64,000 nt of DNA from Bombilactobacillus thymidiniphilus (GTDB lineage: Bacteria; Bacillota; Bacilli; Lactobacillales; Lactobacillaceae). The translations under genes and the position numbers were made by a program. The first letter of the stretch is position 1. Each line of letters opens with the position of its first letter. Positions 2,320 through 32,560 of this stretch are shown here, piece by piece. The stretch is from positions 1,240,001 to 1,304,000 of the forward strand of contig NZ_CP093365.1 in the NCBI RefSeq assembly GCF_023380245.1, in the 5' to 3' direction. The notes below the pieces were generated by a model. The model made no database searches and was not told the origin of the DNA. It saw only the letters and a program-made list of their open reading frames with translations.

Positions 2320-2360
2320 GCTATAATAACTTAGTAAACTTTAACTAGGAGAATTTGCTC

Positions 2361-4466
2361 GTGAAATTTATGCACCGTTTTAATAAGGCTAAAACTACAC
2401 AATCTATTTTGCCGTTTCGTTTAAATGTTTTATTGATTTTAGTCTTTGGCTTGTTTGCACTTTTGATAGGACAATTAGCATATTTGCAACTTTTAAATGG
2501 GAGTAAGTTTCAAGCGGAAGTGGATCGTTCTGATAAAACCGTGATTAGTGGTAATGTTCCACGTGGCTTGGTTTACGATTCCAAGGGACGTTTGATCGTG
2601 GGTAATGATCCTAGCAGTGCAATAACTTATACACGTAGTGGATCAGTAAAAACTAGTGATATGTATCAAATTGCTAATCGCTTACAAAAATTTGTTTATC
2701 TAGATGATGGTAATTTAACTAAACGTGATAAAGCTGATTATTATTTGGCTGACAGCAAGCATTATAAGAAGATTCAAGCTCTAATTACTAAGGGAATGTC
2801 AGATGACGAAGTACAGTCGATTGCGCAAAGTGATTTGTACAATCGAGCTGTAAAATATGTATCTAATCATATAAATTTAGATTTGACTCCTGCCCAAGAG
2901 CAAGCGGCGCTTATTTTCCAAAAAATGAGTTCTGCTTCGCAATATTCAACGGTTTATATTAAAAGTTATCATGCTACACCTAAAGAAGTTGCGGAGGTTA
3001 GTGAACATCAAATCGAATTGCCTGGCGTTCAAGCTGGTGTAGATTCTCAGCGCTCTTATCCAATGGGTGATTCCATGAGTAGTATTATTGGTAAAGTTTC
3101 TACTGAAAAACAAGGTTTGCCTGATGATCGCGTTAATCAATTATTAGCTGAAGGCTATTCGCGCGATGATCGTGTCGGGACTAGTTATTTAGAACAAGAA
3201 TATGAGCCAATATTAAAGGGCAGCAAATCTCAAACTCAAATTTCTGTGGGACCTAATAATAAATTAACGGATTCAATTTTGAAGTATAAGGGCTCACAAG
3301 GTAGTAATCTTAATCTAACCATCGATTCACAATATCAAAAAGCAGTTGATAGTGCGGTGAAACAAACCTTTTCCTCGGCTCAAGCAGCAGGTGTTGCTCA
3401 ATATTCTGATGGAGCCTATGCAGTCGCAATAAATCCTAAAACTGGTGCTATTTTAGCAATGTCTGGTGTTCATTATGATCCTACAACTGGAAAAACCACA
3501 GACGATGCACTTGGTGTCATTAACCGTACATTTGTTATGGGTTCGGCTGTTAAAGGTGCTACTGTATTGGGGGGGTTGATGTCGGGCGCAATTTCACCAG
3601 AAAATAATGTTTTATCTGACGAACCAATTTATTTACCGAGTACGCCAGTTAAAAAATCTGTTTATCCTAACGGTACTTTTGGTGCATTAGGTGCCACACA
3701 AGCCTTGGAAGTATCTTCGAATATTTATATGATGCGTTTAACAATGCGTGAAGGTAATGCTAAATATACTCCTAATAAGTATATTCATATTGATCAAGAT
3801 ATTTTCAAAAAAATGCGAGCTAATTTCAACCAATTTGGTTTAGGTGTTAAAACCGGTATTGACTTACCTGGAGAGTCCAGTGGTATTGAAGGTCCGACCA
3901 TGAGTGATGGTATGGTAAAAGTGGGTTCAGCTCTGGATGAGTCCTACGGTAACTATGATGCTTATACGTTAATGCAAATGGGGCAATACGTTTCGACTAT
4001 TGCTAATGGTGGATATCGCATGAAGCCATATATTGTCCAATCAATCCAAAAATCTAAAAATGATGGTACCTTGGGAGCTATCGTTAATATTACACAGCCC
4101 CAAGTTTTGAATCGGGTAGGATTTGACTCTAGTCAATTGAATGTTGTTAAAACTGGATTTTATAATGTGGTGCACGGCACTGGTGCTTGGACAACTGCTA
4201 AAGATTTGGCAGATGTTTCGCCATCAATGGCTGGTAAAACAGGTACCGCACAATCATTTTATTATGATCCTAAGCATCCAGACAATCCTAATCCTCCATC
4301 AACGATTACTTTAAGTATGGTTGGCTATGCTCCGGCTAATAATCCACAAATTGCCGTAGCCGTTGTATTGCCTAATTTGAGCACAGAAAAGGGTAATTAT
4401 AATTTAAACTTAGTTAAAAATATGATGAATGCCTATTTTGGTAATTCACAATCAGATTCTGAATAA
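2361..4466 (+). CDS. pbpA: Class B penicillin-binding protein (PBP2A-type transpeptidase)
   Basis: A bifunctional-looking but monofunctional D,D-transpeptidase that cross-links peptidoglycan, probably with the elongation machinery. One N-terminal membrane helix (about residues 20-42) is followed by the dimerisation domain with NVPRGLVYDSKGR and then the transpeptidase domain with SAVK near residue 394, SSN near 450 and KTGTAQ near 624. Length (701 aa) suits PBP2A/MrdA. GTG at 2361 has AGGAG 9 nt upstream; the TTG at 2355 is too close. The downstream order rpmG, cyclo-ligase, rhomboid, yqgQ, glcK parallels the Bacillus pbpA neighbourhood, which is why I prefer PBP2A over PBP2B. Confidence 0.88.
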   Translation: MKFMHRFNKAKTTQSILPFRLNVLLILVFGLFALLIGQLAYLQLLNGSKFQAEVDRSDKTVISGNVPRGLVYDSKGRLIVGNDPSSAITYTRSGSVKTSDMYQIANRLQKFVYLDDGNLTKRDKADYYLADSKHYKKIQALITKGMSDDEVQSIAQSDLYNRAVKYVSNHINLDLTPAQEQAALIFQKMSSASQYSTVYIKSYHATPKEVAEVSEHQIELPGVQAGVDSQRSYPMGDSMSSIIGKVSTEKQGLPDDRVNQLLAEGYSRDDRVGTSYLEQEYEPILKGSKSQTQISVGPNNKLTDSILKYKGSQGSNLNLTIDSQYQKAVDSAVKQTFSSAQAAGVAQYSDGAYAVAINPKTGAILAMSGVHYDPTTGKTTDDALGVINRTFVMGSAVKGATVLGGLMSGAISPENNVLSDEPIYLPSTPVKKSVYPNGTFGALGATQALEVSSNIYMMRLTMREGNAKYTPNKYIHIDQDIFKKMRANFNQFGLGVKTGIDLPGESSGIEGPTMSDGMVKVGSALDESYGNYDAYTLMQMGQYVSTIANGGYRMKPYIVQSIQKSKNDGTLGAIVNITQPQVLNRVGFDSSQLNVVKTGFYNVVHGTGAWTTAKDLADVSPSMAGKTGTAQSFYYDPKHPDNPNPPSTITLSMVGYAPANNPQIAVAVVLPNLSTEKGNYNLNLVKNMMNAYFGNSQSDSE

Positions 4467-15132: not shown

Positions 15133-15311
15133 ACCTTGAATTCACTCCTTGTTTTTTATGATATAGGATTTGGTTGTACGGAACATCTTTTTTTGAGATA
15201 TTCTAAGAAATAAATACAATTATTATGTTTTTTAACCATAGTGCCAAGTACTTAACTTGATTAAAATAAATAGAAATCATAGCAAATTGATTGACAATGG
15301 AGGCTATAAGA

Positions 15312-17015
15312 ATGGTTGACTTAACGAAGAAACCTTACTATTTAACAGCAGAACAAATCAATAGTATTCATCAAAAATTGGTAAAAATGAGCACAAAGGA
15401 AAAAATTGGACAATTGTTTTTTGTTATTGGACCAGATGCAAATACTACTGATATACCAGAATTTATCCATAAATATCAACCAGGTGGAATCATGTATCGC
15501 CCTGATCAAGCTGATAAAATCAAGTCTTCATTAATCGCTGCGCAAGCTGCTAGCGAAATTCCTTTGTTGACAGCAGCAAATTTGGAATCTGGTGGTAATG
15601 GAATTGTTAATGAAGGAACTTGGTTTGGGACACCTTTGCAAGTAGCTGCTAGCGATAATCCAGATAATGCTTATGAACTAGGTAATATTTCAGGCATAGA
15701 GGCCCAACAAGTAGGTACTAATATGGCATTTGCACCTATTGTGGATATTGACAAAAATTTTCGTAATCCAATTATGAATACTCGAACTTTCGGCAGTGAT
15801 CAAGCTAGAGTTTTAGCCATGTCCCGAGCTCAAATTAAAGGACTGCATGCTAACAAAGTTATTCCAGTAATTAAACATTTTCCTGGTGATGGAGTTGATG
15901 AAAGAGATCAACACTTACTTAGTTCGGTGAATTCATTGTCTAAAGATGATTGGATGAATTCTTATGGGCAGATTTATCAAGCTTTGATTGATGAAGGAAT
16001 TCCCGGTGTTATGATTGCACACATTTTTCTGCCAGCATGGGAAAAAGCACTAGCACCTAATACTACAAATACAGATTTACGCCCAGCTTCTAGTTCTAAA
16101 TTATTGATCAACGGATTATTGCGCGATGTTTTGCAATTCAATGGCTTAACTATCACAGATGCCACACCAATGATAGGTTATAATGCTGCAATGCCAAGAC
16201 GCGATCTTTTACCAGCAACTATTAATGCTGGAATTGACATGATTTTATTTAATAAGAATATTGATGAAGATTATGGTTTTATTACAGATGCGGTACAACA
16301 AGGTGTGATCACACAAGAACGCTTAAATGAAGCAGTTTTACGCATTTTAGGAACAAAAATGGCACAAAAAATTATGACTACTGACTACCAACTAATTGCT
16401 AACGATTTGCCGGTTGCAGATTTACATTCGGATCAAGCTCTAAAAGCAGTGGCTCAATTAGCTGATGAATCAATAACTTTAGTTAAAGATCGCGATAATT
16501 TATTGCCTTTAACACCGCAAAAGTATCCTAGAATTCGTCTAGTTATTTTGGGTGATCAAGATGATGGAGGTTTTAAAGAAGGAGGCAATATCAAAGATAT
16601 TGTCTATCAGCAATTAAAAGAGCGAGGGTTTCAAGTAACGCTTTTTGATCAAAACAAACTGGATTTTCATGAAGTTTTTGAAGAAGGAGTAGCTGATCTG
16701 CAAGCTAAATTTGATTTAGCCTTGTATATTGCTAATGTAGAAACTGCCAGCAATCAAACAACTACACGTTTAGATTGGGTGCACTTGATGGCAGCAGATG
16801 CACCTTGGTTTATGAAGTCAATTCCAACTGTTTTCGCGTCTACTGCTAATCCATATCATCTTTTTGATATTCCTAATGTTTCTACATTCATTAATGCTTA
16901 TACAGGTAATGCTACTACTATTAATGCTTTGTTGGATAAGTTAATGGGTAAAAGTACCTTTAAAGGGATTAATCCTGTCGATCCTTTTTGTGGTGATTTC
17001 ACAACAAAACTTTAA
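15312..17015 (+). CDS. Glycoside hydrolase family 3, NagZ-like
   Basis: A 567-aa GH3 enzyme with a TIM barrel (about residues 10-340) and a C-terminal alpha/beta domain. The substrate-binding KHFPGDG lies near residue 187, followed by D-x-H (RDQH), the Asp-His pair that acts as acid/base in the NagZ branch. The nucleophile is the Asp of ITDAT near residue 283. There is no signal peptide, so it acts inside the cell. ATG at 15312 follows TGGAGG by 8 nt. Genes for GH78 and pgmB follow closely. Activity could be beta-N-acetylglucosaminidase or beta-glucosidase; the context favours a beta-glucoside. Confidence 0.82.
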   Translation: MVDLTKKPYYLTAEQINSIHQKLVKMSTKEKIGQLFFVIGPDANTTDIPEFIHKYQPGGIMYRPDQADKIKSSLIAAQAASEIPLLTAANLESGGNGIVNEGTWFGTPLQVAASDNPDNAYELGNISGIEAQQVGTNMAFAPIVDIDKNFRNPIMNTRTFGSDQARVLAMSRAQIKGLHANKVIPVIKHFPGDGVDERDQHLLSSVNSLSKDDWMNSYGQIYQALIDEGIPGVMIAHIFLPAWEKALAPNTTNTDLRPASSSKLLINGLLRDVLQFNGLTITDATPMIGYNAAMPRRDLLPATINAGIDMILFNKNIDEDYGFITDAVQQGVITQERLNEAVLRILGTKMAQKIMTTDYQLIANDLPVADLHSDQALKAVAQLADESITLVKDRDNLLPLTPQKYPRIRLVILGDQDDGGFKEGGNIKDIVYQQLKERGFQVTLFDQNKLDFHEVFEEGVADLQAKFDLALYIANVETASNQTTTRLDWVHLMAADAPWFMKSIPTVFASTANPYHLFDIPNVSTFINAYTGNATTINALLDKLMGKSTFKGINPVDPFCGDFTTKL

Positions 17016-17038
17016 TTTGTATGAAATGAGGTTATGAT

Positions 17039-19846
17039 ATGAAGATTATGCATATTTTAGTTAACCATATGTCCGAGCCTTTGGGCTTTGAATTAAAAAA
17101 TTTACGAATTGAATTTCAAGTACAGCAAGATCATGCCAACAATATAAAATTACAAAAAAAAATCCAAATTTATCTCGATTCACCAAATTCACTGGAGTAT
17201 CAAACTGATTGGCAAGATTTTCCTAATAATTATTTTAATGTGGATTTGGATTTACAACCTCGAACTCGTTATCAAGTAGTGATAAGTATACGTAGTGTTA
17301 ACCAAGAAATTCAAGCCCAGACTTGGTTTGAAACTGGTAAAATGTCCGAACCCTTTAGTGCACATTGGATTGGTAACGCTGATATAGATAGCGCTAATAT
17401 TATTTTACAACGAGAATTAGCGATTAATAAACCTTTAAAAAAAGCTCGACTATATATTAGTGGCTTGGGCTTATATGAGACTTATATTGATGGTCAAAAG
17501 GTTGGTCAGGAATATTTAACACCAGGCGTTAGTGCTTATGATCAATTTGTACAAGTCCAAACTTATGATATAACAAGACAATTGGTAACAATGCGCACAC
17601 ACAAGTTGTGTATTGGTTGTGGTGATGGCTGGTACAAAGGCAATTTTGGTTTTGATGGTGGGCAAGATTGTATTTACGGCAATCGCCAACAAGCAATTGC
17701 AGAATATCATTTAGATTTTACTGATGGCAGTCATCAAGTAATAATTACTGATCAAAATTGGCAAACAACGACAGGTCCTATCAAAAAAGCTGCGATTTAT
17801 TATGGTGAAGACTACGATGCTACTGATTTATTGAAAGATTGGCAGCCAGTCGAACTCATTGAGCAATCTAAAACTGTTTTAAGAGATCGGTTAAGTTTGC
17901 CAATCACTGTTAATCAACGTCTGGTCCCTAAGCTTATTCAGACACCTTCTGGGGAACAGATTTTAGATTTTGGACAAAATCAAGCGGGCTGGATAGAGTT
18001 TTATAATCGCGAGCCATCAGGAATTAAATTGAGTTTTGAAATGGGTGAAATTCTGCAAAATGGTGAATTTTATCGCGATAATTTACGTGAAGCGCGGGCT
18101 ACATTTACTTATGTATCTAATGGTAAATCTGAATGGGTGCGTCCGCATTTTACTTATTTTGGGTATCGTTATGTCAAAGTTAGTGGCAATACCTTGCCTT
18201 TGAATGCTGAAGATTACCAAGCGGCAGTTTTATGTTCACAAATGGAGGATACGGGGAGTATTACAACTAATTCTTCTTTAGTTAATCGATTATTTAAAAA
18301 CGTTATCTGGGGACAACGCAGTAATTTTTTAGATATTCCAACTGATTGTCCGCAACGTGATGAGCGATTAGGTTGGACTGGTGATGCTAATATTTTTTCA
18401 CAAACAGCTGCTTATAATATGAATGTTTTCGCCTTTTTTAAAAAATATGCGCATGACATTGCTTTAGAACAGCAACAAAACGATGGTTTTGTGCCAATGT
18501 ATGCGCCTGCGATGGGACAAAAAGATGGCGGCGCAGCGGTTTGGGCGGATGCAGCAACAATGATTCCCTGGAATATGTATCAAATCTATGGTGATCCAGC
18601 TATTTTAAGGCAAAATTATTCGCAAATGAAAGCTTGGGTAGATTGGATTAGTCAACATACCACAACGCCTAATTTGTGGACAGGGACTTTTCAATTCGGT
18701 GATTGGCTAGCCCTTGATGGTGAGAACCCTGGCAAACCAACAGGCAAGACTGATGAGGATTTTATCGCATCAATTTATTATTATTGTTCCACTAACATTG
18801 TGGCGCAAACGGCTCAATTGCTAAAGGATCCGGCTAATTATCGACGCTATTTAGCACAAGCCCGTAACATTAAAAAAGCTATTCAACAAGAATATATTAC
18901 TGCTAATGGGCGCTTAGCTATTGATTCGCAAACTGCTTACTCTTTAGCACTGTGTTTTGATATTGTCACACAGGAGCAAAAAGAACATGTAGTAGCGGAT
19001 TTAGTTCGGCGTATTAATTTAGATAAGCAGCATTTGACGACAGGTTTTGTTGGTACACCATATTTATGTCAGGCATTGTCTGATAACGGACAACATAAAT
19101 TGGCTACAACAATCTTTTTGAATGAAGATTTTCCAAGTTGGCTGTATGCTGTTAAACTTGGTGCGACAACTGTTTGGGAACGCTGGGACTCTGTGCAAGC
19201 TGATGGAACTATTAATTCGCAAGGAATGAATTCGTTAAATCATTATAGCATTGGCGCTATCATGGCTTGGGCATACAAATATTTATTAGGTATTAAAGCC
19301 CAAACCCCGGGTTTTCAAAAAACTACTTTTTCACCGCAATTTGATTATCGCTTGCCTAGAGTAGAAGGCAGCTTTCAGACTTCTTATGGTAAAATAGCTG
19401 TCCAAAGTGCAATTGAAACTGATGAACAGCATACAATTTTGATCAAATTGGTAGTACCCATAGGAGTTGATCTACAAGTCTTTTTGCCACGCTCCCAACA
19501 GCAAATAATTAGTGTAAATCAACAAGAAAAAATTGGTGATGGTTTCTGGTTGTCATCTGGTGAATATCAGATTTCATATCAACCTACGTTAGATTATATT
19601 GAACGCTATACGCCTCAAACGCCAGTAAAGCAAATCTTGGTAGATCAAGATTTAGTGGCACAAATTATGGATATTGATCCAGTGCTTAATTTTTTTGTGC
19701 AAGATCCACAGGCTATTGATAATTTTGGTTCGATGAGTTTGACAGAAATGAATACTACATTTCCATTTATCAATATCTCTGAACAACATTTACAACAAAT
19801 TAATGATTTATTAACGCAAACTGAAATTTTAAGTGAAAGAAAGTAG
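17039..19846 (+). CDS. Alpha-L-rhamnosidase (GH78)
   Basis: Releases terminal alpha-L-rhamnose from plant glycosides. The 935-aa protein has the N-terminal beta domains of bacterial rhamnosidases (IYISGLGLYETYIDG-type segment, LTPG) and the (alpha/alpha)6 barrel with the GH78 signature DIPTDCPQRDERLGWTGDA; the Glu near residue 442 is the expected acid. WADAATMIPW and the TTVWERWDS segment complete the active-site region. No signal peptide is visible, so the substrate must be imported. It lies 23 nt behind GH3. The last 60 residues are an extension I do not recognise. Confidence 0.93.
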   Translation: MKIMHILVNHMSEPLGFELKNLRIEFQVQQDHANNIKLQKKIQIYLDSPNSLEYQTDWQDFPNNYFNVDLDLQPRTRYQVVISIRSVNQEIQAQTWFETGKMSEPFSAHWIGNADIDSANIILQRELAINKPLKKARLYISGLGLYETYIDGQKVGQEYLTPGVSAYDQFVQVQTYDITRQLVTMRTHKLCIGCGDGWYKGNFGFDGGQDCIYGNRQQAIAEYHLDFTDGSHQVIITDQNWQTTTGPIKKAAIYYGEDYDATDLLKDWQPVELIEQSKTVLRDRLSLPITVNQRLVPKLIQTPSGEQILDFGQNQAGWIEFYNREPSGIKLSFEMGEILQNGEFYRDNLREARATFTYVSNGKSEWVRPHFTYFGYRYVKVSGNTLPLNAEDYQAAVLCSQMEDTGSITTNSSLVNRLFKNVIWGQRSNFLDIPTDCPQRDERLGWTGDANIFSQTAAYNMNVFAFFKKYAHDIALEQQQNDGFVPMYAPAMGQKDGGAAVWADAATMIPWNMYQIYGDPAILRQNYSQMKAWVDWISQHTTTPNLWTGTFQFGDWLALDGENPGKPTGKTDEDFIASIYYYCSTNIVAQTAQLLKDPANYRRYLAQARNIKKAIQQEYITANGRLAIDSQTAYSLALCFDIVTQEQKEHVVADLVRRINLDKQHLTTGFVGTPYLCQALSDNGQHKLATTIFLNEDFPSWLYAVKLGATTVWERWDSVQADGTINSQGMNSLNHYSIGAIMAWAYKYLLGIKAQTPGFQKTTFSPQFDYRLPRVEGSFQTSYGKIAVQSAIETDEQHTILIKLVVPIGVDLQVFLPRSQQQIISVNQQEKIGDGFWLSSGEYQISYQPTLDYIERYTPQTPVKQILVDQDLVAQIMDIDPVLNFFVQDPQAIDNFGSMSLTEMNTTFPFINISEQHLQQINDLLTQTEILSERK

Positions 19847-19854
19847 GTTAAATA

Positions 19855-20508
19855 ATGATTAAGGGCGCTTTATTTGATTTAGATGGAGTAATTGCTGACA
19901 CTTCACGATATCATTTTCAAGCTTGGCAACAATTGGTTCAATCGCAATGGCAAAAAAAATTACCAGCGACTTTTGAACAGCAGACCAAGGGCGTTAGTCG
20001 CACCGATTCCTTGCAAAAAATAATAACTTTTTTGCAAATCAACGTCACTGAAGAAGAATTCAATAACTTATTAGCTATTAAAAATAAGATGTATTTACGA
20101 CTATTGGCAGATTTGACACCAGCTAATATATTGCCTGGAATTACTACATTATTGTCTAATTTACGTCATCAAAAAATCAAAATAGCTTTAGCTTCAGCTA
20201 GCCAAAATGCACCATTAATTTTAAAAAAATTAAATTTATTATCTAGTTTTGATTACTTAGCTGATCCCACAAAAGTTAAGGCTGGCAAACCGGCGCCAGA
20301 TATCTTTTTAGAGGCAGCGGCGGGAATTAAAATTCATCCACAAGATTGCTTCGGATTGGAAGATTCTATTGCTGGCATCGATGCCATTAATGCTGCCGAA
20401 GTTTTTTCTGTGGGTGTGGGATCACAAACGGAGCTTCACGCAGCCAATTTATTATTCGCAACTACTAATGATATAAGTTTAGATACAATAGAACAAAAGT
20501 TTAAGTAA
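19855..20508 (+). CDS. pgmB: Beta-phosphoglucomutase (HAD superfamily)
   Basis: Converts beta-glucose 1-phosphate to glucose 6-phosphate. The nucleophile Asp8 and acid/base Asp10 are in FDLDGVIADTSRYHF, the cap-domain segment follows, and KAGKPAPDIF and LEDSIAGIDA carry the remaining HAD motifs. Length 217 aa is exact for the family. It lies 8 nt behind the rhamnosidase, so the three genes form an operon. A beta-phosphoglucomutase normally pairs with a phosphorylase making beta-glucose 1-phosphate; none but the GH3 enzyme is visible here. Confidence 0.9.
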   Translation: MIKGALFDLDGVIADTSRYHFQAWQQLVQSQWQKKLPATFEQQTKGVSRTDSLQKIITFLQINVTEEEFNNLLAIKNKMYLRLLADLTPANILPGITTLLSNLRHQKIKIALASASQNAPLILKKLNLLSSFDYLADPTKVKAGKPAPDIFLEAAAGIKIHPQDCFGLEDSIAGIDAINAAEVFSVGVGSQTELHAANLLFATTNDISLDTIEQKFK

Positions 20509-20630
20509 TGAAACTATAAAACGTAATTTACTTATAATTATTTTTTTATTATAATGAGTGATAAGTTGAGATTTGATGACTAATTATATATTACACAATC
20601 TTTTTTATTAAGGTGTGTATATTGATTTTA

Positions 20631-20666
20631 ATTGTCGTTAATCAAGTAAATATTGTCGTTTATCAA
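20631..20666 (+). promoter_or_regulatory. Direct repeat, candidate LytTR regulator binding site
   Basis: ATTGTCGTTAATCAA (20631-20645) and ATTGTCGTTTATCAA (20652-20666) agree at 14 of 15 positions and repeat with a 21-bp period, two helical turns. LytTR-domain response regulators of the PlnC/PlnD and ComE type bind such pairs. The pair lies just upstream of a TATAAT at 20695-20700 that lacks a good -35 box, as in activated promoters. Confidence 0.65.
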
Positions 20667-20694
20667 TAAAACTATGAATATTTTTTGATTATTG

Positions 20695-20700
20695 TATAAT
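20695..20700 (+). promoter_or_regulatory. -10 box of a putative activated promoter
   Basis: TATAAT 28 nt after the direct repeat. The expected -35 position (20672-20677, CTATGA) is poor, so transcription would depend on an activator. The transcript would begin near 20707, about 380 nt before the LytTR gene. Confidence 0.5.
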
Positions 20701-20730
20701 GTTTGTTGTGTGGAAGGAGGTAATTATATT

Positions 20731-20754
20731 TTGCTTGAATTTTATTTATCATAG
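20731..20754 (+). other. Possible 7-codon open frame behind a strong ribosome binding site
   Basis: AAGGAGG at 20714-20720 is followed 10 nt later by TTG and six sense codons (peptide MLEFYLS) and TAG. Such a strong ribosome binding site without a gene suggests a leader peptide or the remains of a decayed gene. The rest of the 20509-21085 gap is AT-rich with no convincing coding frame. Confidence 0.3.
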
Positions 20755-21085
20755 AAACTTAACTTTGGGGGAAGATATAGTTTTTTATTTTAAATGAAAT
20801 ATATACAAATATATTTTTTATTGAGTTACTTTTAATAATTTAAGCATTATTATTTTAAATGAAATGACTTTTGTTCTAATATATAAATGGTGAATCGGGG
20901 ATTCGTGGTAATAGCAAATATATTCAAGATTGTTATAGATATTTGAATATTGGAATTTTAAACTGAATCACAAAATATGGTTAAATAGGAATTTGTTATT
21001 AGTTGGTTAATAGTGTTAGACTCAAAAGTGCTTTTATATGACAACCGTTTACAGATAGCAATTAATTATTTCGGAGGAGCTCACC

Positions 21086-21835
21086 TTGTATCCAGTTTAT
21101 TTGCTGGAAGATGATTTTAAACAGCAAGAAGAATACAGTTCTATAATTAAAAATGCCATTAAGAAAAACAAATGTGATATGCAGTTGGTTTGTCGGACGA
21201 TGTCACCACTAGAGCTGATATCAATGGCCCAAGCGCAAGAAGGCAATGATGGTTTGTTCTTTTTAGACATGGAAATTGGTGATAATCGGCAAGCTGGTTT
21301 GCAGACAGCAATTCAAATTCGAGAGTTGCTACCGTTTTCTCAGATTGTTTTTATCACTGTTCATGAAGAATTAGCTTTTTTGACTTTAGAAAATCGTGTA
21401 GCTCCAATGGATTATGTCATTAAGGATCAAGATTCGAACCAAGTTGCTAAGAAAATTAGTGAAAACATTGTTCGTGTTTCTGCTATGTTTCAGAAAAGTG
21501 ACTATAATCATCCTAAAATGTTTACTTATCGTGTGGGGCAGCGTTACCATTCTTTGCCGTTAGATGATATTATGTTTTTTTCTACAAATAAAACTTTGCG
21601 TGGGCATGTGTTGTGGCATACTGCCGACCAAGAAGCTGAGTTTTTAGGAAGTTTGACTGAGCTGAATCATCGTTATCAGAATCAGAATTTTTTCAGGTGC
21701 GATAGGAGCTATTTAGTTAATTTAAATCAAAAATGTTCTTTTGATAATGAGACTAGAAAGATTAGTTTTGCTGATGGCAGCGAAGCTTACGTAGCTTCTC
21801 GCAAGGTGCACGAATTTTTACAAAGATTTCAATAA
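21086..21835 (+). CDS. LytTR-type response regulator (AgrA/ComE/PlnD family)
   Basis: A 249-aa regulator with an N-terminal receiver (acidic pair E8/D9-D10, phospho-acceptor Asp61 in FFLDMEIGD, Lys in YVIKDQD) and a C-terminal LytTR DNA-binding domain (about 145-245, with FFSTNK, FFRCDRSYLVNL and RKISFADGS). TTG at 21086 follows CGGAGGAG. No histidine kinase or pheromone gene lies beside it, which is unusual because these regulators normally work in peptide-sensing trios. It may drive its own promoter through the upstream direct repeat. A terminator follows. Confidence 0.9.
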   Translation: MYPVYLLEDDFKQQEEYSSIIKNAIKKNKCDMQLVCRTMSPLELISMAQAQEGNDGLFFLDMEIGDNRQAGLQTAIQIRELLPFSQIVFITVHEELAFLTLENRVAPMDYVIKDQDSNQVAKKISENIVRVSAMFQKSDYNHPKMFTYRVGQRYHSLPLDDIMFFSTNKTLRGHVLWHTADQEAEFLGSLTELNHRYQNQNFFRCDRSYLVNLNQKCSFDNETRKISFADGSEAYVASRKVHEFLQRFQ

Positions 21836-21838
21836 AAT

Positions 21839-21873
21839 AAAAACACTTTCTTTGTTGCTGAAAGTGTTTTTTT
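21839..21873 (+). terminator. Terminator after the LytTR gene
   Basis: Stem AAACACTTTC / GAAAGTGTTT with a 9-nt loop and seven T, starting 4 nt after the stop codon. Confidence 0.9.
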
Positions 21874-21916
21874 ATGGTTTTATTTAAATATAAGTTTATG
21901 TGAAGGATGTGTTATA

Positions 21917-22222
21917 TTGTCTGAAATTTTACCTATTGGTTCTGTTGTGACACTCAAAGGAGAAAATGCAACACCGGTCATGGTTACAAGCCGGGCTGCT
22001 ATATATCAAGAGATTAGTAATAAAACAGGTTATTTCGATTATTCAGCTGTTTTATACCCAGATGGTGTTGAAGATCCCCAAGATTTTATTTTTTTTAATC
22101 GTGAAGATATAGCTGAGCTATTATTTAAGGGTTTTGTTAATGCTGAAGAAAGTGAATTTGCACAACATTACGATCAATTAGTTAACGATAGCGGTTATCC
22201 TAAATTGCATATCAAGGATTGA
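21917..22222 (+). CDS. DUF4176 domain protein
   Basis: A 101-aa protein fitting the DUF4176 family: LPIGSVVTLKG at the start, then YFDYSAVLYPDG and FFNREDIAELLFKGF. Members are often encoded in type VII secretion loci beside LXG toxins, but no such genes occur here. TTG at 21917 has AAGGA 9 nt upstream. It stands between two terminators and so forms its own transcript. Function is unknown. Confidence 0.8.
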   Translation: MSEILPIGSVVTLKGENATPVMVTSRAAIYQEISNKTGYFDYSAVLYPDGVEDPQDFIFFNREDIAELLFKGFVNAEESEFAQHYDQLVNDSGYPKLHIKD

Positions 22223-22233
22223 TTTTATTAAAT

Positions 22234-22289
22234 AAAAAATGATATGTTCTACGAAATTAGTCCAAAATTTCGCTAGCATATCATTTTTT
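22234..22289. terminator. Bidirectional terminator, DUF4176 gene / clpP
   Basis: A long interrupted inverted repeat: outer arms AAAAAATGATATG / CATATCATTTTTT and inner arms CGAAATT / AATTTCG. It lies between the convergent genes and has T-runs on both strands. Confidence 0.85.
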
Positions 22290-22292
22290 CAT

Positions 22293-22880
22293 TTAATTAT
22301 TTTGACTGTTGACCATAATATCGTCGATTAAACCATATTCTTTAGCTTCAGGAGCTGTTAAATAGTTATCGCGTTCAGTATCTTTTTTAATTGTTTCAAT
22401 ATCTTGACCGGAATTATCGGCTAGAATTTTATTTAAACGACTTCTGGTTTTGAGAATTTCTTCTGCAACAATTTCAATTTCAGTTTGCTGACCTTGGGCA
22501 CCGCCGGACGGTTGGTGGATTAACACAGTAGAATTAGGTAGTGCAAAACGTTTGCCACGCGTTCCAGAAGATAATAGAACACTAGCCATTGAAGCGGCCA
22601 TACCCATAGCAATTGTTTGTACATCAGCTTTAACAAAGTTCATAGTATCCATGATTGCTAATCCAGCAGTAACCGATCCACCTGGTGAATTAATATACAT
22701 ATAAATATCTTTCTCAGAATCTTGAGCATCTAAGAAAAGCAATTGTGCAATAATTGTATTAGCCATTTCGTCGTTAACTTCGCCGGAAAGCATAATGATT
22801 CGATCTTTTAAAAGGCGTGAATAAATATCGTAAGCGCGTTCACCACGCGAATTTTGTTCAATAACTGTAGGAACTAACAT
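22293..22880 (-). CDS. clpP: ATP-dependent Clp protease proteolytic subunit
   Basis: The serine protease core that degrades proteins fed by Clp ATPases. The catalytic Ser97 is in MGMAASMAS and His122 in LIHQPSGG; the Asp lies in the ERDNYL region. The 195-aa length is standard. ATG at 22880 follows GGGAGG; the longer frame starting at 22910 begins before this site. A promoter-like pair lies upstream. Only a half CtsR-like motif was seen, so heat-shock control is not shown. Confidence 0.97.
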
Positions 22881-31588: not shown

Positions 31589-32560
31589 ATGAAATTGAAT
31601 AAAAATCTAATGAAGTTGGTTGCATTATTTGAGGTTGCTGTTTTTGTCGGTGGTGGTGCTAGTGTTGCACAAGCTAGTCACCATAATCATAACAACAATA
31701 ATCAAGAGCAAGTAGATCGTCATCACCACAATAACAACGATCATCATAACAACAATGATCATCATAACAACGATCATCATAACAATAATAATGATCACCA
31801 CAATAACAACGATCATCATAACAATAATAATAATCACCACAATAATAACAATTCTTCAAGCAATAATAACCATTCAACGTCAACGGTTACTAGTGCTTAT
31901 CAACAAGGTGATGCCTTTAATCAAGTTCAGTTGAAAAATGTAGCTTCAAGTAATGTACAATTTAAGGTAGGTTCTGCTTACAGCGTAGACATTCAAGATA
32001 CAACAGTTAATCCTATCCAAACGCAAGAAAAGAATTCTAAATTAGTTATTAGTCAATCAGGACGTAATCAAAATGCTAATGCAGACGATTATTCAATCGT
32101 GGTTACAGTGCCAAGTTCTTCTTCATTAGATAGTATTGATGCCAGTGTTGGAAAAGGCCAAGTACAAATTTCAGATTTAGATTTGACAGCACAAAGTACA
32201 GTTAGCTCCAATTCTGGACAAGTAACAATTAGTGATTCCACTTTTAATGGTCTAAAATTTGATGCTAATTCCGGTAACTTAGAGTTGGACAATTCACAAG
32301 TTAATCGGTTAGTTGCAGTAGGTAACTATTCTGAAGTTAATGTTAACAATACTAACTTGACTGGTTACAATAAGATTAATGGTAACAATGTTCGAGTTTC
32401 TTTGAATAATGTTGCTGATGATCTTGGGTTAAGTGTCAAAGGTGCAATAGTTAATGCTGACTACTATGGCACACACTATGGTTATAGTTTCACCCAAAAT
32501 AGAAATGCCAGTGATGAATTAGATATTACCGGTCGTTCATTGAATGTTAGCGTTCAATAA
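31589..32560 (+). CDS. Secreted His/Asn-rich protein with a C-terminal beta domain
   Basis: A 323-aa protein in three parts. A signal peptide (about 1-29, cut after A-Q-A) is followed by a low-complexity region (about 30-95) with 19 His in 66 residues, built from DHHN2-5 units. The C-terminal part (about 105-323) has alternating short strands such as GKGQVQISDLDLT, NSGQVTISDSTF, NSGNLELDNS and NNVRVSLNN, typical of a beta-helix like the DUF4097/DUF2807 adhesin-type domains. No LPXTG or membrane anchor is present, so it is probably released or wall-bound by charge. The His-rich part could bind Zn, Ni or Cu. Function is inferred, not known. GGGGG precedes ATG 31589. Confidence 0.72.
   Translation: MKLNKNLMKLVALFEVAVFVGGGASVAQASHHNHNNNNQEQVDRHHHNNNDHHNNNDHHNNDHHNNNNDHHNNNDHHNNNNNHHNNNNSSSNNNHSTSTVTSAYQQGDAFNQVQLKNVASSNVQFKVGSAYSVDIQDTTVNPIQTQEKNSKLVISQSGRNQNANADDYSIVVTVPSSSSLDSIDASVGKGQVQISDLDLTAQSTVSSNSGQVTISDSTFNGLKFDANSGNLELDNSQVNRLVAVGNYSEVNVNNTNLTGYNKINGNNVRVSLNNVADDLGLSVKGAIVNADYYGTHYGYSFTQNRNASDELDITGRSLNVSVQ
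31722..31853 (+). repeat. Short tandem repeat coding DHHN units
   Basis: Degenerate tandem units of GATCATCATAACAACAAT, 15-21 bp long and always in frame, encode the His/Asn tract. Length is likely to vary among strains by slippage. Confidence 0.85.

Follow-up and report, generated by a model that had tools for sequence, protein, structure and literature searches.

A LytTR regulator alone with its promoter

How does a response regulator of the AgrA/PlnD class receive its signal when no peptide or kinase gene adjoins it, and why does a long and almost empty leader separate it from its promoter? These questions are raised by a locus of Bombilactobacillus thymidiniphilus, a bee-type lactic acid bacterium, which we analysed within a window of 64,000 nucleotides (the whole stretch of DNA considered, C1:1240001-1304000 of the single 1,494,436-base contig of an assembly whose completeness is estimated at 94.05%). 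Based on the comparative evidence presented here, we propose that the locus is probably what remains of a PlnABCD-like operon, that its peptide and kinase genes were lost there, and that an orthologous peptide-kinase pair at 234.8-236.2 kb of the contig forms one circuit with the regulator.

The LytTR domain of the regulator (Table 1) scores 70.2 bits against a Pfam cut-off of 22.6, its receiver domain 24.7 bits, under the cut-off of 30.2; the receiver residues E8, D9, D61 and K113 do not vary among eight homologues. The top NCBIfam model is quorum_RR_AgrA, at 110.7 bits, far under that model's cut-off of 400. The regulator is the only LytTR match in the assembly at E<=0.001, and among the open reading frames (ORFs) of the window no peptide or kinase gene adjoins it. 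Its description in the first-pass annotation as an orphan of the AgrA/ComE/PlnD class is thus upheld.

Table 1. Features of the regulator locus (window coordinates)
Feature	Position	Strand	Description	Basis
Left repeat	20634..20642	+	Putative regulator-binding repeat GTCGTTAAT; PlnC/PlnD consensus TACGTTAAT	Repeat scans; consensus from excerpts of PMC2714321
Right repeat	20655..20663	+	Putative regulator-binding repeat GTCGTTTAT; period 21 = 9-bp repeat + 12-bp spacer	
-10 box	20695..20700	+	TATAAT, 39 nt past the first base of the right 8-mer TCGTTTAT; the G003 operon has this distance too	
AGGAGG	20715..20720	+	Presumed vestigial Shine-Dalgarno (SD) sequence of the lost peptide gene; no peptide frame behind it	Comparison with G003
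Leader remainder	20721..21042	+	About 320 nt; no match in Rfam and no convincing remnant of a peptide or kinase gene	
Possible kinase-gene remnant	21043..21079	+	Possible 3' end of a kinase gene; holds the regulator SD (21073-21079)	DNA similarity to G003
Regulator	21086..21835	+	LytTR response regulator, AgrA/PlnD class, 249 aa, TTG start	Pfam, homologue alignment, trees
Terminator	21840..21873	+	Likely intrinsic terminator 3' of the regulator, hairpin then T run	By eye from the sequence
DUF4176 gene	21917..22222	+	With clpP, marker of the chromosomal site common to the intact G003 operon	

Upstream of the leader lies a pair of near-identical 15-mers, ATTGTCGTTAATCAA and ATTGTCGTTTATCAA, at 20631-20666 with a period of 21 bp. 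They had been pointed out before; the pattern matches once in the window and in 0 of 100 window shuffles. According to excerpts of PMC2714321, PlnC and PlnD bind 9-bp repeats of the consensus TACGTTAAT with a 12-bp spacer, in which C3 and T6 are critical. Both bases are found in each window repeat, and the window promoter likewise comprises two 9-bp repeats and a 12-bp spacer upstream of a -10 box. The absence of a -35 box, also reported earlier, was borne out by eye, the hexamers 16-18 nt upstream of TATAAT (20671-20678) having no likeness to TTGACA.

Repeats combined with TATAAT were then scored in up to 600 nt upstream of 40 kinases, those of this genome and of the congener G003 among them, and upstream of the window regulator (two of the loci, L060 and L071, come from a single record). 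The window promoter was the top scorer of the scan (22; 0 of 100 shuffles equal), and the G003 promoter, which lies just beyond the 600-nt stretch and was scored separately, also reached 22. Scores of at least 19 were obtained upstream of 14 of the 40 kinases (13 distinct), at most 1 of 100 shuffles being as good for each, with periods of 20-21 and the -10 box at 39-40 nt; the other 26 scored below 19.

The corresponding operon is intact in a congener

A comparison with related strains had been recommended as a search for an intact peptide gene, and in G003 (locus L058) the corresponding site carries such genes between promoter and regulator: three identical tandem GG-leader peptide genes (MLKNMSDQELQKVVGGATVSTFN...), a kinase gene and a regulator gene, all contiguous. 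The order gap, gapR, reductase, clpP, DUF4176, regulator is common to both genomes (gene names mostly from reading translations), with three extra genes in between in G003, namely two small membrane genes and a formyl-THF ligase-like gene (in two ORFs). In G003 the promoter has the sequence GCGTTAATCAA-N10-ACGTTAATCAA, followed by TATAAT 39 nt past the start of the right repeat, by AGGAGG and by the ATG of the first peptide gene; the period of 21 and the distance of 39 nt are identical to those of the window. The gene whiA lies upstream of the G003 operon and about 75 kb away in the window genome, so that the upstream side was rearranged. In the place of whiA the window has a sugar-utilisation block (15291-20508), which includes an alpha-L-rhamnosidase and a HAD hydrolase (both from Pfam) and a glycoside hydrolase-like protein (from reading its translation).

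The repeats are conserved in one congener. The perfect pair occurs at only two places in seven genomes of the genus, the window and G003, and is missing from the other five even when one mismatch is allowed.

The unit triplicated in G003 (L058 9254-9786) comprises the SD, the peptide gene and the start of the kinase coding sequence, and this tandem triplication looks recent.

A peptide-kinase pair about 1.02 Mb from the regulator

A search of the B. thymidiniphilus genome for the GHKL ATPase domain (HATPase_c_5) gave five hits, four of which are HisKA kinases (L023-L026). The fifth and best is a 436-aa membrane kinase at C1:234769-236079 on the minus strand, with no HisKA or HAMP domain at E<=0.1, which we take to be of the HPK10 type. 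It is the only kinase of this type found in the genome (234.8-236.1 kb), unlinked to the regulator. Directly preceding it is a 41-aa gene (236086-236211) encoding the peptide MKNLSDQELKQINGG/ATVSNFNLFCGSNGSVLGWIYNHLKG (the slash marks the presumed GG cleavage site), whose leader scored 19.1 bits against the bacteriocin_sig model in the genome scan (curated cut-off 15.7). For the tblastn, NCBIfam and HisKA/HAMP searches this peptide was entered without its first residue. The presumed mature peptides of the two species start alike, ATVSNFN and ATVSTFN. No regulator gene lies at the pair, which is followed on its 3' side by a hairpin with a T run, a tRNA-Gln gene and an acetyltransferase-like gene (by reading its translation); the window regulator is about 1.02 Mb away along the contig. 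Peptide, kinase and regulator are thus contiguous in G003 and do not form one operon in the window genome.

How closely these genes are related to the G003 operon was assessed with trees. A contig scan with the single regulator as query returned no relative, and one with an alignment of eight returned 29 loci; from a further search with many matches, the closest were followed. Among the 38 other loci, which were selected for similarity to the window regulator and hence not at random, a related kinase gene occurs in the same locus in all 38 and within 600 nt of the regulator in 37 (L060 and L071 again counting as one record). For the trees of 38 regulators and 38 kinases we dropped L071 (the same record as L060) as well as L059, L062 and L066, in which a gene was short or broken or a full-length pair within 1.5 kb was lacking. 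With support of 100/98 in each tree, the window regulator and the 235-kb kinase pair with their G003 counterparts, in both cases inside one group of five made up of Bombilactobacillus and Latilactobacillus fuchuensis (support 89/94 for the regulators, 95/97 for the kinases).

The orthologous proteins of the two species are 42% (kinases) and 49% (regulators) identical, unevenly distributed. In the kinase, 58 of 91 positions are identical in the H-box/DHp region, 63 of 206 in the membrane part and 54 of 116 in the remaining ATPase part; in the regulator, 69 of 115 in the receiver, 3 of 30 in the linker and 49 of 102 in the LytTR part. Conserved docking between kinase and regulator alongside a diverging signal would give such a pattern, which is not proof of it. 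The first-pass annotation had allowed that the regulator might answer to a kinase elsewhere, and the intact pair speaks for this: the 235-kb peptide and kinase are most likely the regulator's own signal and sensor. One might suppose instead that the regulator takes its signal from a non-cognate kinase or acts independently of phosphorylation, the 235-kb pair signalling elsewhere; no kinase adjoins the regulator, and a 2025 paper on ComE of S. mutans treats, in its excerpted text, activation by a constitutively expressed regulator. We consider this quite improbable, given that the genome searches turned up a single HPK10-type kinase and a single LytTR regulator, each sister to its counterpart in the G003 operon, and that the H-box/DHp and receiver domains are better kept than the membrane part.

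The genome contains one match to a C39 peptidase ABC exporter, at about 708-710 kb (TIGR01193, 862 bits; cut-off 523.85), so that the presumed circuit lies at three places. The G003 exporter is unlinked as well (771 kb); hence only the peptide-kinase split is peculiar to the window genome.

As for the origin of the pair, the kinase gene adjoins nnrD in none of the six congeners. A mobile element was considered and set aside, only short, mostly AT-rich repeats having been seen around the pair, with neither such an element nor a telling flanking repeat. The most parsimonious history is loss at the old site and survival at the new one, through either relocation or duplication followed by complementary losses. 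The pair could also have been acquired rather than relocated; the kinase tree disfavours a distant source.

The leader as a probable deletion scar

The AGGAGG noted earlier as strong, with a mere 7-codon frame behind it, was read again in the sequence together with that frame (TTG start, 20731-20754). The spacing from TATAAT to AGGAGG is 14 nt in the window and 13 nt in G003, and since the promoter geometry agrees with that of the G003 operon, the AGGAGG is best read as the SD of the old peptide gene.

When 20509-21085 was compared by blastn with the G003 operon and with the 235-kb region of its own genome, the best of the listed matches to G003 was the promoter (E 5e-4) and the second-best, at window 21043-21079 (E 0.007), the 3'-terminal codons of the kinase gene. 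Both fall at the expected places, the distance from the latter to the regulator start equalling that in G003 to 1 nt. The next match (E 0.023; 0.013 in a rerun), an implausible one, pairs a stretch overlapping the promoter with the middle of the G003 kinase gene. Against the 235-kb region the leader gave no convincing blastn similarity, the best match (E 0.035) lying away from the two ends. In a Markov control without the SD, 91 of 40000 sequences scored as well as the possible kinase remnant at any offset and 13 of 40000 within 3 nt of register; among real gene-upstream stretches, 1 of 175 outscored it (24 against 23). The tail of the genome's own kinase matched the leader poorly (score 14), and nine other family kinase tails matched it worse than the G003 tail.

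Protein-level tests were negative: the family kinase HMM gave scores of -0.6 and below, within those of shuffles, on six-frame translations of the leader; 1150 of 2000 shuffles reached the leader's best score with a kinase C-terminal protein profile; and tblastn for decayed peptide or kinase frames gave at best E 0.7. The kinase remnant, which is short and stands out from background by a modest margin, is consequently backed by DNA similarity to a single sister species, and we regard it as more probably real than spurious. A candidate H-box remnant at 20839-20853 (blastn E 0.28) was dropped. The case for a scar leans mainly on promoter, SD and synteny, from which the "empty leader" is best read as the trace of a deletion. 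As to the earlier suggestion that the peptide gene had decayed, it is indeed missing at this site, but the kinase gene has gone with it, and an intact pair persists elsewhere; this suggestion and that of a kinase elsewhere are complementary, and both are supported.

A further proposal was that the leader is itself a regulatory RNA; as a functional 5' element it would then control the regulator. Its length, about 380 nt from the predicted transcript start to the regulator, would suit such a role. The leader has no Rfam match at E<=1, however, and folds no better than shuffled sequences (z 0.28; 57 of 100 shuffles at least as stable), so that neither a known family nor an unusually stable structure was found, and its 5' end, perhaps also its 3' end, is accounted for as relics of the old operon. 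We therefore judge a regulatory RNA to be very improbable.

Other target sites and the question of decay

A genome search for the repeat pair had also been proposed as a way to other target promoters, such as those of bacteriocins or adhesins. With a looser repeat pattern the sole perfect match in the genome is the window site itself, so that no bacteriocin or other target operon with a second perfect site was found by pattern search, which degenerate sites may escape. Six other one-mismatch sites of the looser pattern and three three-mismatch sites were placed, eight of these nine within ORFs of at least 60 aa; the ninth (L007, window 2671-2699) lies within a 703-aa ORF (2355-4466), and a fourth three-mismatch site (C1:1271894, window 31894-31924) within the ORF 31589-32560. 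All ten weak sites that were placed in this genome are thus within ORFs, and all matches to the looser pattern (49+54) are fewer than those to a reversed-pattern control (132+134). Before the 235-kb peptide gene the best repeat-plus-TATAAT site scored 17, matched by 11 of 100 shuffles (degenerate sites are possible).

Such a scarcity of strong target promoters could mean that the whole system is decaying, with the regulator a leftover and the 235-kb pair serving something else or dying too, and the small genome (1.49 Mb), the scar-like leader and a receiver domain under the Pfam cut-off would agree with this. Decay is nevertheless unlikely in our view: the reading frames of peptide, kinase and regulator are all intact, the key receiver residues and the promoter geometry are conserved, and the kinase has no other LytTR regulator that we could find.

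Proposed circuit and comparison with known systems

Peptide quorum-sensing operons are textbook autoinducers: the levels of signal, sensor and regulator increase jointly. In the preferred reading, the stretch between operon promoter and regulator would have lost its peptide and kinase genes, while promoter, SD, scar and regulator stayed behind, and the orthologous pair would now be a separate unit at 234.8-236.2 kb. Once expressed, the peptide would be cut to 26 residues and exported, likely by the lone C39 exporter; it would then be sensed by the 235-kb kinase, which would phosphorylate the window regulator, and the phosphorylated regulator would bind 20634-20663 and activate its own promoter. 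The usual self-amplifying loop thus appears to be cut in two, and the best reading of the sites found is that the regulator amplifies itself and no longer visibly its signal. Should the 235-kb pair truly have no such site upstream, feedback would have passed from signal, sensor and regulator together to the regulator alone. That operon splitting has in this way rewired a working circuit, in which production of signal and sensor does not depend on the regulator, the sole strong site found drives the regulator itself and positive feedback acts on signal sensitivity instead of signal production, is a tentative suggestion to which we would give slightly less than an even chance.

The closest known system is the PlnABCD operon of Lactiplantibacillus plantarum C11, for which excerpts of PMC2714321 describe, as here, a GG-leader induction peptide, an HPK and LytTR regulation, with the promoter layout shared by the window. 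In that account the pln regulatory genes make up a single autoregulated operon, which includes two regulators and acts on further target operons, whereas the B. thymidiniphilus genome has one regulator, far from the peptide and kinase genes. There the peptide gene is preceded by no convincing repeat pair, and no other perfect site was found. With the AgrA/ComE class the window regulator has the LytTR and receiver domains in common; among the differences are the GG-leader peptide and the C39 exporter present in the genome. The G003 operon shares the DUF4176-clpP neighbourhood, but is contiguous where the window genome is split. In the available text of openly licensed PMC papers on Bombilactobacillus, B. 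thymidiniphilus, orphan LytTR regulators, plantaricin repeats and unlinked cognate kinases in lactobacilli, no account of such a split was found.

A natural split and an intact sister operon in one genus offer a paired comparison of circuits built from the same components, with and without signal feedback. The locus also indicates how an apparent orphan regulator with an oddly long leader may be recognised as the scar of an operon.

Other loci

Among the relatives, the locus L066 (6047-7557, genome G014) has one of three close family regulators in two pieces, adjoining a short kinase ORF of 256 aa; this member of the regulator family is apparently decaying.

The ends of the B. thymidiniphilus contig (G000:C1:1-22296 and 1472141-1494436) appear to make up an inverted repeat, about 22.3 kb long. 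The stretches compared, namely the first and last 200 bases, 3,045 bases around 19 kb and 20037-22296, are exact mirror images. Such a structure could reflect a linear replicon or an assembly fold-back, the latter being more likely. Within it, at about 17.6-20.7 kb and mirrored at the other end, is a cluster of small GG-leader-like peptide genes (L156). No repeat pair plus -10 box scores 18 or more in this cluster; with bacteriocin_sig, one of its peptides is over the cut-off when neighbours are counted and one is under it. These genes are possibly relics of bacteriocins or pheromones.
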